A stretch of DNA of 64,000 nucleotides, from NCBI GenBank assembly GCA_947449015.1, contig CANFQA010000008.1, positions 1 to 64,000 of the forward strand. Reading direction: 5' to 3'. How positions within the stretch are numbered: position 1 is the first letter of the stretch; every line of letters starts with the position of its first letter. The DNA comes from Microthrixaceae bacterium. Its GTDB lineage: Bacteria > Actinomycetota > Acidimicrobiia > Acidimicrobiales > Acidimicrobilacustridaceae. The notes below the pieces were generated by a model. That model worked only from the letters and a program-made list of their open reading frames with translations. It had not been told where the DNA came from and ran no database searches. The translations under genes and the position numbers were made by a program. This document shows positions 57,780 through 62,110 of this stretch, one piece after another.

Positions 57780-58316
57780 TCAGGGTCGTACCGAGCGGGT
57801 GGGCAGCGAGGTGCCCTCCTGCCAACGAGCGAGAGTCCAAAGCAGGTCGGAGAGACGATTGAGATAAGGAACAACGACACTGCCATCGACCACCGCAGGC
57901 ATGGAGTCGCGCTCAGCGCGGCGGACGACGGTGCGGGCCACATCGAGCAGCGCGCCAATGCGATTCTGGCCGGGCACGACGAACTCGGTTGGCGGGTCGA
58001 AACGCTCACTAATGGCATCGATGGTGGTTTCGAGCCGAGTGACCATTTCGTCCGATACCAACGTGGCGCCAGAGACCAATTTCTCCCGACTCGAGGGTTC
58101 GGTGGCGAGTTCGCCCATGAGTACCCAGAGATCCCGCTCGATCAGAAGCAAGATCTCCCCCAGTTCGGGATCGGCCTCGGCACGTGCCAGACCAATCGCC
58201 GCCTGCGCCTCATCGACTGCGCCATAGGCAGTCGGAGCAGCAGAATCCTTCGCCACCCTGCCGCCGTAGAGCAGCCCAGTCGTTCCGTCATCACCATGTC
58301 GCGTGTAGATCTTCAC
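57780..58316 (-). CDS. Cob(I)alamin adenosyltransferase, PduO type
   Basis: The 178-residue protein begins VKIYTRHGDDGTTGLLYGG, with YGAVDEAQAAIGLARAEA, FVVPGQNRIGALLDVART and VVRRAERDSM, the PduO pattern. It makes adenosylcobalamin from cob(I)alamin and ATP, the cofactor of the mutase at 26473. The GTG at 58316 follows TAGGCT by exactly 7 nt, so longer upstream frames are rejected. It is divergent from metH, another B12 enzyme. Confidence 0.93.
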   Translation of the reverse strand: MKIYTRHGDDGTTGLLYGGRVAKDSAAPTAYGAVDEAQAAIGLARAEADPELGEILLLIERDLWVLMGELATEPSSREKLVSGATLVSDEMVTRLETTIDAISERFDPPTEFVVPGQNRIGALLDVARTVVRRAERDSMPAVVDGSVVVPYLNRLSDLLWTLARWQEGTSLPTRSVRP

Positions 58317-58323
58317 GGGTGCG

Positions 58324-58329
58324 AGCCTA
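58324..58329 (-). promoter_or_regulatory. -10 box TAGGCT, leaderless start of the cobalamin adenosyltransferase gene
   Basis: Minus-strand TAGGCT lies 7 nt before GTG 58316. It decides the start. Confidence 0.6.
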
Positions 58330-58333
58330 CGTC

Positions 58334-58350
58334 GGTCGGGGTGCCCGACC
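58334..58350. repeat. Perfect inverted repeat in the adenosyltransferase/metH gap
   Basis: GGTCGGG and CCCGACC flank a GTG loop (7-bp stem). It lies just upstream of the adenosyltransferase -10 box and upstream of the metH one, where a regulator could bind. Further GGTCGG copies occur at 58396 and 58415 and CCGACC at 58439. Confidence 0.6.
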
Positions 58351-58384
58351 CCTACCGACCACCGGATCGGCTGCGGCCCTCTGA

Positions 58385-58615
58385 TAGATTCTGTAGGTCG
58401 GAGCTGTCCTGATGGGTCGGGCCAGAGCGCCCCAGCGACCGACCGGAATCCACACCCGATTGTTTCGTCCCGTTTCCTCGCGATCCGCTTTGACTGCTGC
58501 GCAGTTGCAGTGCGTCGAGGCCCCTCGCGGAATCTCTCGGTTGCTGCTCCGCCCCAACCCATCGTTGCCCGCAGATCGTTGATCTGCGCCTGCCCTTTCG
58601 CTCCAAGGAGTCACC
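58385..58615 (+). promoter_or_regulatory. metH promoter and long structured 5' leader
   Basis: TAGATT (58385-58390) is a likely -10 box, giving a leader of about 220 nt, very long for this genome. GGTCGG at 58396-58401 or 58415-58420 can pair with CCGACC at 58439-58444, two mutually exclusive folds. Near the gene, CGCAGATC (58570-58577) and GATCTGCG (58581-58588) form an 8-bp hairpin, followed by AAGGAG 5 nt before ATG 58616. No B12 box or SAM/SAH riboswitch core was recognised. Apart from these elements, the 299-bp gap 58317-58615, the largest in the window, shows no gene. Confidence 0.5.
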
Positions 58616-61600
58616 ATGAGCAGTTTCCTCGACGCAGCCCGCGAACGTGTCGTCATCTTCGATGGTGGCATGGGCACCGGCATCCAGTTGCGAGAGCTCA
58701 CGGCAGATGATTTCGGTGGCGAGGAACTCGAGGGGTGCAACGAACTGCTTGCGGTGACCAGGCCCGATGTGATCGGCGAGTTACATGCGGCATATCTCGA
58801 AGTCGGCTGCGAGGTCATCGAAACCGACACGTTCGGCGCCTTCGCCATTCCGCTTGGCGAATACGGGATCGCCGAGCGGACCCATGAACTCAATGTGGCT
58901 GCGGCTCGTCTTGCCAAGGATGTGGCATCGAGTTACGCCACGCCCGATCGGCCGCGATGGGTAGCTGGATCTATTGGACCGGGCACCAAGTTCCCATCGC
59001 TGGGGCAGATCCGATACGCAGAGTTACGCGATCACTATGAGCTGCAGAGCCATGGCCTGCTCACTGGCGGCGTAGACCTCATCATCATCGAAACCATGTT
59101 CGACCTGCTCACCGTGAAGGCCGCAATGAACGGCGCCAGGCGCGCCATGCGTTCGCTCGGTATCGATGTGCCATTGCAGGTGCAGGTCACGATGGAACTC
59201 ACCGGACGCATGCTCCCGGGCACCGAGATCGCTGCGGCGCTCGCCGCTATCGATCCGCTGCGCCCCGATGTCATCGGCATCAACTGCGCAACCGGTCCGG
59301 TCGAGATGGGTGAGCATCTGCGTCATCTCGCCGCGCATGCCCGCATGCCGATCTCCTGCATTCCTAATGCCGGCCTGCCCAGCGTGGTCGACGGCCACAT
59401 GCATTACGACCTCACCCCCGACCAGCTCGCCGAGCACCACGCACGATTCATCACCGAACTCGGCGTCAACATCGTCGGTGGATGCTGCGGAACGACGCCA
59501 GAGCATTTGGCTGCCGTCGTGGAGCGCTGCCGCGATCTCACCCCGGCGCCACGCACTCCGGTGCATGAAGCAGGTGCAACCTCGATTTACTCGCTCGTGC
59601 CGTTTGAGCAGGACACCTCGTTCATGATCATCGGCGAACGCACCAACGCCAACGGTTCGAAGAAGTTCCGTGATTCCATGCTTGAGGGCGATCTCGATAC
59701 CTGTGTTCAGATGGCTAAGGATCAGGTCAAGGAAGGTGCCCATGTCCTCGATCTCTGCGTCGACTACGTCGGCCGCGACGGCACCGACGACATGGACGCC
59801 ATCGCCCAGCTGTTCGCAACCCAGTCGAGTGTTCCGCTCGTTCTTGACTCCACCGAGCCGCAGGTACTCGAAGCCGGACTTTCTTGGCTCGGGGGACGCG
59901 CCATTCTCAACTCGGCCAACCTCGAGGACGGCGACCATGACGGCAGCCGCCTCGATCGCGTGATGAAACTGGCCAAGGAGTACGGGGCAGCAGTGATCTG
60001 TCTGTTGATCGATGAGGAGGGTCAAGCCCGTGACATCGAATGGAAACTGCGCATCGCCCATCGCATCCATGACCTCGCCGTCAATCGCTACGGCCTCGAG
60101 CCAAGCGATCTCATCTTCGATGCTCTGACATTCCCGCTTTCCACTGGCGACGACGACCTGCGCGGCGATGCCATCGCCACGATCGAGGCCATCCGTCGCA
60201 TCAAGAGCGAGATGCCCGGTGTGTTCACCACACTCGGAGTTTCCAATGTGTCGTTCGGCCTCAAGCCCGCCGCGCGCCATGTGCTCAATTCCGTATTCCT
60301 GCACGAGTGCGTGCAGGCCGGACTCGACTCCGCCATCGTGCATGCGGCGCGAATCATGCCCCTCAATCGTGTCCCCGATGAGCAGCGGCAAGTCTGCCTG
60401 GACCTCATTTACGACCGTCGTCGCGATGGCTACGACCCGCTCACCACGCTGCTCGACGTGTTCGCCGATGTGCAGGCAACCGAGGTTGAGCAGGAGGACC
60501 GCAGCGACTGGAGCATCGAACAACTCCTCAGCCAACGCATCATCGACGGTGACCGGGAAGATCTCGACCTCGCTCTCGACGAGGCGATGTCCAGCGGAAT
60601 CGAGCCGCTCATCATCATCAATGACATCCTGCTGGCCGGCATGAAGGTCGTGGGCGATCTCTTCGCCACTGGCGAGATGCAGCTCCCATTCGTTCTGCAG
60701 TCGGCAGAAACGATGAAGATGGCTGTCGCCCACCTTGAACAATTCATGGAGAAGTCCGATACCGGCGGCAAGGGACGCATTGTTCTGGCCACCGTCAAGG
60801 GCGACGTCCACGACATTGGCAAGAACCTCGTCGACATCATCCTCACCAACAACGGCTACGAGGTACACAACATCGGCATCAAGATCTCCATTGCGGAGAT
60901 GATCGAAAAGGCCATCGAAGTGAAGGCCGACGCCATCGGCATGAGCGGTCTGCTGGTGAAGTCCACACTCATTATGCGCGACAACCTCCAAGAGTTGAAT
61001 GCTCGCGGGCTTGCCGACATCCCAGTACTGCTTGGCGGCGCCGCGCTCACCCGTAGTTACGTCGAGCGCGACCTACGCGAGGTCTACGAGGGTCGTCTCT
61101 TCTACGGCAAAGACGCCTTCGAGGGCCTACGGGTCATGGATCGCCTCGGTGATATCAAGCGAGGCACTGAACCTGATGATGCCGACTGGGGTCGAGTTCC
61201 AAGCGAAAGCCGAGTGCCGGCCCGGTCTGGTTCCCGAGATGTCGAAACGCCATCTGCTCCCCTGCCGGCTCGCTCGCCAGAGGTGGCACTCGACAATCGC
61301 GTCTTCACGCCACCATTCCTTGGCTCCCAGGTGATCAAAGGCATCGCCATTGACGACATCGCCGCCTACATCAACGAGACCGCGCTATTCCGCAACCAGT
61401 GGCAGTTCCGCCCGGAAAAGAATTCCGACGGATCAGTGGAATCCGATGAGGGGTTCAAGGACCGCATCCGTTCCATCCTGCGCTCACAACTCGCTGAGGC
61501 CAAAGCAAGCGACATGCTGATCCCGCAGGTGGTCTATGGATATTTCCCGGCGAATAGCGACGGAACCGATCTCGTCATTTGGACCGACGACACGCGCACA

Positions 61601-62110
61601 ACCGAGCGCATGCGCTTCAGCTACCCACGCCAACATGAAGCACCGCACCTGTGCATTGCTGATTTTTTTCGGCCTGTTGGATCGGCCGAGCCTGATTATG
61701 CGGCGTTCCACATTGTCACCATGGGTCAGCGAGTCAGCGATCTGGCCGCCGACCTCTTCGCCCAGAACCGCTACCAGGAGTACCTGTTGGTGCATGGCTT
61801 GGGTGTCGAGATGGCCGAAGCGCTGGCCGAGTACTGGCACCATCGTGTCCGTACCGAATGGGGTTACGTGGATGAAGACGGCCCCTCACTCGCTGGCCTC
61901 TTCCGTCAGCAGTACCGCGGCGGACGCTACTCCTGGGGCTATCCGGCCTGTCCTGATCTCGAGGACAACATGGCAGTTGCTGCATTGCTCGATGCCGGAC
62001 GTATTGGCATCAACGTCAATGAAGACACCGGATTCCAGTACCAACCAGAGCAGACCACCTCGGCGCTCATCTGCCATCACCCACAGGCGAAGTACTTCAT
62101 CGCTCGCTGA
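58616..62110 (+). CDS. metH: Cobalamin-dependent methionine synthase
   Basis: The 1164-residue protein has all MetH modules in order: homocysteine domain with GINCATGP and GGCCGTTPEH (zinc Cys), pterin domain with IIGERTNANGSKKF, the B12 cap, the B12 domain with DVHDIGKNLVDIIL (cobalt-ligand His near 732), and the AdoMet reactivation domain (about 900-1164) ending YFPANSDGTD, VHGLGVEMAEALAEYWH and RRGYSWGYPACP-like residues. A Ser/Pro/Arg linker (about 849-890) joins the last two. It transfers methyl from methyltetrahydrofolate to homocysteine. Start and ribosome site are clear. Confidence 0.97.
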   Translation: MSSFLDAARERVVIFDGGMGTGIQLRELTADDFGGEELEGCNELLAVTRPDVIGELHAAYLEVGCEVIETDTFGAFAIPLGEYGIAERTHELNVAAARLAKDVASSYATPDRPRWVAGSIGPGTKFPSLGQIRYAELRDHYELQSHGLLTGGVDLIIIETMFDLLTVKAAMNGARRAMRSLGIDVPLQVQVTMELTGRMLPGTEIAAALAAIDPLRPDVIGINCATGPVEMGEHLRHLAAHARMPISCIPNAGLPSVVDGHMHYDLTPDQLAEHHARFITELGVNIVGGCCGTTPEHLAAVVERCRDLTPAPRTPVHEAGATSIYSLVPFEQDTSFMIIGERTNANGSKKFRDSMLEGDLDTCVQMAKDQVKEGAHVLDLCVDYVGRDGTDDMDAIAQLFATQSSVPLVLDSTEPQVLEAGLSWLGGRAILNSANLEDGDHDGSRLDRVMKLAKEYGAAVICLLIDEEGQARDIEWKLRIAHRIHDLAVNRYGLEPSDLIFDALTFPLSTGDDDLRGDAIATIEAIRRIKSEMPGVFTTLGVSNVSFGLKPAARHVLNSVFLHECVQAGLDSAIVHAARIMPLNRVPDEQRQVCLDLIYDRRRDGYDPLTTLLDVFADVQATEVEQEDRSDWSIEQLLSQRIIDGDREDLDLALDEAMSSGIEPLIIINDILLAGMKVVGDLFATGEMQLPFVLQSAETMKMAVAHLEQFMEKSDTGGKGRIVLATVKGDVHDIGKNLVDIILTNNGYEVHNIGIKISIAEMIEKAIEVKADAIGMSGLLVKSTLIMRDNLQELNARGLADIPVLLGGAALTRSYVERDLREVYEGRLFYGKDAFEGLRVMDRLGDIKRGTEPDDADWGRVPSESRVPARSGSRDVETPSAPLPARSPEVALDNRVFTPPFLGSQVIKGIAIDDIAAYINETALFRNQWQFRPEKNSDGSVESDEGFKDRIRSILRSQLAEAKASDMLIPQVVYGYFPANSDGTDLVIWTDDTRTTERMRFSYPRQHEAPHLCIADFFRPVGSAEPDYAAFHIVTMGQRVSDLAADLFAQNRYQEYLLVHGLGVEMAEALAEYWHHRVRTEWGYVDEDGPSLAGLFRQQYRGGRYSWGYPACPDLEDNMAVAALLDAGRIGINVNEDTGFQYQPEQTTSALICHHPQAKYFIAR

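Follow-up and report, generated by a model that had tools for sequence, protein, structure and literature searches.

The window, a 64,000-nucleotide stretch of DNA, comes from a 2.4-Mb genome in 86 contigs assigned to a Microthrixaceae bacterium, and the relatives with which we compared it are Acidimicrobiia. Within it, a 299-bp intergenic space (58317-58615) is bordered by a cobalamin adenosyltransferase gene on one side and metH on the other, and the features of this locus are as follows.

57780-58316, minus strand: gene for a PduO-type cob(I)alamin adenosyltransferase, divergent from metH (TIGR00636 at 129 bits, with the cut-off at 108)
58385-58390, plus strand: -10-like promoter hexamer TAGATT (TAnnnT), read from the sequence
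58396-58445, plus strand: conserved RNA element of type A, whole (scoring 62.4 bits with covariance model R1 and 58.4 bits with R2)
58396-58406, plus strand: 5' strand of helix P1, consisting of GGTCGG, a bulged A, and GCTG (covariation in alignments A1 and A3)
58407-58418, plus strand: conserved 12-nt bulge UCCUGAUGGGUC / TCCTGATGGGTC, the probable ligand core (CCTGATGG is invariant in the metH alignment A1)
58419-58432, plus strand: hairpin P2, GGGC-CAGAGC-GCCC (pairing in 100% of cells; C-G replaced by U-A and U-G)
58433-58444, plus strand: 3' strand of P1, consisting of CAGC, a bulged GA, and CCGACC (covariation in A1 and A3)
58546-58564, plus strand: leader segment complementary to the core at 58411-58428 (inverted repeat I1, 18 nt, 83%)
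58570-58588, plus strand: 8-bp hairpin ahead of the ribosome site, outside the element (inverted-repeat search)
58605-58610, plus strand: Shine-Dalgarno sequence AAGGAG of metH, read from the sequence
58616-62110, plus strand: metH, the regulated gene, encoding cobalamin-dependent methionine synthase (NCBIfam TIGR02082, 1295 bits against a cut-off of 1011)

The plus strand of the intergenic space folds better than its shuffles (z = -3.6, with 0 of 100 shuffles as good); the minus strand shows no such advantage (z = -1.2). Given the TAGATT hexamer at 58385-58390, the metH transcript is predicted to start near 58396, in agreement with the leader of ~220 nt reported in the preliminary description of this DNA. 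That description had also drawn attention to two GGTCGG/CCGACC pairings, which it took to compete, and to the hairpin in front of the ribosome site. Both pairings exist, but only that of 58396-58401 with 58439-58444 is conserved, and we discarded the idea of a switch between competing helices because the strong helix at 58331-58359 is unconserved and lies upstream of the -10 box. This upstream helix (GTCGGTCGGGGT/ACCCCTACCGAC), just 5' of the metH promoter, is found 15 to 43 nt before the adenosyltransferase start and may belong to the minus-strand leader of that gene. The 8-bp hairpin is likewise real, but it is absent from the relatives' leaders examined, is not conserved, and forms no part of the element. 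Past the element, the metH leader of the window (58446-58604) is roughly 75 to 120 nt longer than the leaders of relatives, and the extra part contains both the core-complementary segment and this hairpin.

The conserved unit is the 50-nt element at 58396-58445, smaller than the 220-nt leader first noted. It forms a hairpin at the 5' end of the metH leader, built from an outer helix (P1), a bulge on the 5' side only, whose core letters can also be given as CCNGANGG, and an inner hairpin (P2), in which 58419-58422 pairs with 58429-58432 in the window. The type A consensus reads (GCC)G.RAGCUG-wCCUGAUGGGnA-GGGC-nnGAnn-GCCC-CRGCUU.G(CGGC), where P1 comprises GCUG/CRGC plus a variable outer part and P2 is GGGC/GCCC. 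A DNA search of 60 relatives found that, the gene start aside, it is mainly positions 58399-58436 that are conserved, at a varying distance from metH. The element was present in the metH leaders of all 19 same-genus genomes in which metH was found, as well as in four more genomes of the family (G023, G027, G033, and G034). Family members that do not carry it (e.g., G025, G031, and G035) have a TAnnnT ~6 to 8 nt before the metH start codon and look leaderless; the same spacing and appearance were seen at metH or ahcY genes that do not carry the element in L054, L055, L056, and L217. For these genes, having a leader and having the element tend to coincide.

The covariance check that the preliminary description had proposed for metH leaders from relatives revealed that P1 covaries: across 16 leaders, both-side changes were observed in 5 P1 pairs. 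When 32 sequences were aligned (A3), both-side changes were found in 8 pairs and 45 cells, relative to 17 cells in shuffles, with 0 of 500 shuffles reaching 45; 92% of cells in this alignment were paired, compared with at most 52% for slid partners. G-U pairs greatly outnumbered A-C mismatches (26:1 in P1b plus P2 of type A, 16:0 in type B, and 42:1 together), an excess that marks the sense strand. The orientation relative to promoter and gene was the same in all members. In 82 of 93 distinct elements, TAnnnT preceded the RGCYG of P1 by 12 to 22 nt, against a background of 0.5% in neighboring sequence, and this spacing places the element at the predicted 5' end of the transcript. Several of the exceptions carry an extra hairpin between the -10 box and the element. 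In some families (L236, L237, L241, L248, and L253), an extra GC-rich hairpin (e.g., GGCCTTCCGGGGCC) separates the -10 box from an element of the second form, type B.

Type B has a shorter bulge (consensus GGGCUGA-nnnGAnn-GG(U)GYC-AGnn-GRCC-CCAGCC) and belongs to ahcY of close relatives, where most of the 30 leaders retrieved carry it directly after the -10 box; its P1 and P2 both covary. The model of this form, R3, found matches in 43 of 198 genomes from the order, and the loci lay immediately upstream of ahcY in 35 of the 37 fetched first and 10 of the 13 fetched later (two being repeats), while two R3 hits at the phylum level outside the order were set aside as chance. Since G204 scores with both R1 (1.6e-5) and R3 (1.3e-5), although it belonged to the R3 training set, types A and B are probably one family whose bulges differ by 4 to 5 nt. 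Close relatives such as G002, G003, G004, G010, G011, G012, and G019 combine a type A element at metH with a type B element at ahcY.

The gene association was obtained with R1, which was trained on metH leaders only and run over 397 genomes of the order. Outside the home family, 18 hits reached E ≤ 5e-4, with 13 directly upstream of ahcY, 3 upstream of metH, 1 upstream of the adenosine deaminase gene (add), and 1 (L096) in an unrelated context. Weaker hits, with E above 6e-4, had no ahcY, metH, or add downstream in any of the 28 that were fetched for checking; these were rejected as chance, and because all 28 were unrelated, the border between real and chance hits is clear. R2 gave four strong hits in another order of the class, each of them preceding add, and two full-length add proteins, one per order, exceed the TIGR01430 cut-off. 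A pattern search across 84,980 species yielded 65 matches, of which 31, including one in the isolate Acidiferrimicrobium sp. IK, precede metH (20), ahcY (10), or add (1); the remaining matches were nearly all cyclophilin codons and otherwise isolated chance matches. R2 and R3 hits elsewhere in the phylum were also dismissed as chance. The association with ahcY, metH, and add thus holds across two orders of one class, the Acidimicrobiia, and metK was never downstream of a confirmed element. In the window's own assembly ahcY was not found, so a second regulon member is not visible in this genome; the missing gene is probably an assembly gap. Three metagenome-assembled records titled Bifidobacterium breve (L136, CAMCTY010000003; L140, CAMCTW010000041; L141, CAMAYJ010000016) contain an Acidimicrobiia metH with the element, and their titles look wrong. 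Another record, titled Acidobacteriota bacterium REEB343 (L179, JAGWSF010000226), likewise carries the element, and its ahcY shares 99% identity with the gene of an Acidimicrobiia genome; this record is probably mislabeled or misbinned. Taken together, the element is a structured sense-strand RNA with covariation, located at the predicted transcript start and specifically associated with these genes in one class.

We next compared the element with known RNAs. Rfam 15 gave no match in the window at the gathering threshold and nothing meaningful up to an E value of 10, the loose-threshold hits (RAGATH-1 hammerhead at 18 bits, miRNA and snoRNA models) being chance only, and scans of 37 relatives' loci gave no family match. 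The earlier reading that the leader has no B12 box and no SAM or SAH core is thus borne out by covariance scans, and its suggestion of a new regulatory RNA on metH gains support from the covariation of P1 together with the lack of an Rfam match in the window or the relatives tested. A family search for the SAH riboswitch RF01057 likewise had no hit above the cut-off in any of 118 genomes from the order. In the open literature we found no description of the element, and with respect to the 2017 set of 224 candidate RNAs it is the Rfam scans that apply. We therefore regard it as very likely that this is a real, conserved, and, as far as tested, undescribed cis-regulatory RNA of the SAH cycle in Acidimicrobiia.

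The closest functional parallel is the SAH riboswitch, described from beta- and gammaproteobacteria, whose regulon is centered on ahcY, extends to metH in certain taxa, and leaves out metK (PMC4239095). The element shares this metabolic logic, being a leader RNA before ahcY and metH and not metK, but no member tested matches the RF01057 covariance model, and at about 35 to 50 nt it has a two-helix core. Like the SAM/SAH riboswitch RF01727, it is very small and lies near the translation start, and a loop might also pair with the ribosome-binding region; in contrast to RF01727, it gave no covariance-model match in loose scans, has the inner hairpin P2, and is not found on metK, the gene of SAM/SAH riboswitches in Rhodobacterales (PMC7367207, PMC4239095). 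By function, the element would work like the SAH riboswitch, whereas by sequence and structure it falls outside both RF01057 and RF01727. The SAM-Chlorobi motif RF01724 also sits in the leaders of ahcY-containing operons (PMC2864571), but that motif is confined to Chlorobi and occurs on metK as well, and our element has no Rfam match. Finally, the setting recalls the cobalamin riboswitch RF00174, given that metH is a frequent target of that riboswitch and that the divergent gene here encodes a cobalamin adenosyltransferase; the element, however, has no RF00174 match and no B12 box and also lies on ahcY and add, neither of which uses B12.

AhcY converts SAH to adenosine and homocysteine, MetH uses homocysteine, and adenosine deaminase removes adenosine. 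Since SAH is the molecule that best explains ahcY, metH, and add together, and since the presence of the element before ahcY and add points to SAH rather than cobalamin, we consider the balance to lie somewhat in favor of the element being a riboswitch for SAH, which would bind directly in the bulge or at the P1-P2 junction.

How such an element might act is suggested by complementarity between its core and the leader downstream. In the window, GATGGGT (58411-58417) of the core pairs with ACCCATC at 58557-58563. Elsewhere the complementarity is kept at other positions, as TGATGGGT/ACCCATCA in G010 and G011, as AGACGGGA/UCCCGUCU in L095, whose core is changed, and as AGAAGGGA/UCCCUUUU in L102. 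Within the element, only the bulge is more complementary to the downstream leader than shuffles are. Each core fits its own downstream leader better than those of others (P of about 0.008 in each type, with the partner site at a variable position), P1 meets stronger competition from the native linkers of type A than from shuffled ones (6.1 versus 3.8 kcal/mol; P = 0.006), and forced P1 formation exposes the translation start of type B more than it does with shuffled linkers (P = 0.011), although all these P values are optimistic, the sequences being related and the effects modest. In the window itself, the model left the predicted Shine-Dalgarno exposure unchanged when P1 was forced.

The metH and add leaders of two orders also have in common a block, UUCGACGCGCC, directly before the Shine-Dalgarno sequence and a GGCG after P1, and this shared block is a possible expression platform. 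Just before the start codon, the block takes the form TTCGACGCGCC(A)AGGAG in L039, L040, L089, L090, L104, L106, and L107, which include both metH and add leaders. Two other arrangements were rejected: a leader peptide from the ATG of CCTGATGGG, which many ahcY members (CCAGACGG, most of type B) do not have, and a fixed CCTG/CAGG pseudoknot with the Shine-Dalgarno sequence, which many metH leaders contain but CCAGACGG members cannot form.

Considering the pairing, linker, and shared-block signals together, we favor a competition model in which the ligand-stabilized element would free the message. When the ligand is absent, the core and the 3' strand of P1 would pair with the leader further downstream, and translation initiation would stay low; when SAH is present, the P1/P2 fold would be stabilized and the gene turned on, so that SAH, homocysteine, and adenosine would be cleared. 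That SAH turns the genes on is, in our estimate, an evenly balanced proposition and the least certain step of the proposal, the direction of switching being inferred in view of the relatedness of the sequences and of a Shine-Dalgarno exposure that, for the window itself, was unchanged in the model.

The strongest of the alternatives, though an unlikely one, is that the element is a riboswitch sensing SAM, adenosine, or homocysteine, the other metabolites considered from the cycle, and that it perhaps turns the genes off through a pseudoknot between the core and the translation start. The core can indeed pair with start-codon sequence in L202 (ATCGGGT/ACCCGAT), L234 (TGGGTGGG/CCCACCCA), and L092, SAM/SAH riboswitches operate in this manner (PMC7367207), and adenosine and homocysteine are the products of AhcY. 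Nevertheless, no element was seen before metK, the usual target of SAM riboswitches; adenosine would leave metH unexplained and homocysteine would leave adenosine deaminase unexplained, whereas SAH is common to all; and the partner site lies at a variable distance. Less likely still is that the element marks the site of a regulatory protein, on the RNA or as a DNA operator just past the promoter, with no metabolite-binding RNA involved. Its position directly behind the -10 box is one where a repressor could bind, and SAH-responsive proteins are known, namely, SahR, and McbR in Corynebacterium (PMC4239095). However, the tolerance of G-U, the near absence of A-C, and the uniform orientation form an RNA signature that speaks against a DNA operator, albeit one still compatible with an RNA-binding protein. 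That the element is merely a stable 5' hairpin protecting or insulating the message, with no switching, fits its GC-rich P1/P2 at the extreme 5' end and the small predicted effect of forced P1 on the window's ribosome site, but such a hairpin would need neither a conserved bulge sequence nor restriction to three genes of one pathway, making this explanation highly improbable.

Overall, we think it probable that the element is a riboswitch-type cis element of an SAH-disposal regulon, a candidate SAH binder that would act as an ON switch through competition within the leader. The more specific proposal, that it represents a new class of minimal SAH-sensing riboswitches (about 35 to 50 nt) that has a fold of its own, is restricted to Acidimicrobiia, and switches on ahcY, metH, and add, has in our view a chance only slightly better than even. 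To our knowledge, validated SAH-selective riboswitches have one fold only, RF01057. A second, independent, and smaller SAH candidate in another phylum would therefore test how few nucleotides suffice for SAH recognition and, if true, could serve as a compact SAH sensor in methyltransferase assays. It would also bring the removal of adenosine into an SAH-riboswitch regulon and supply a control circuit for the methyl cycle of the little-studied Acidimicrobiia.
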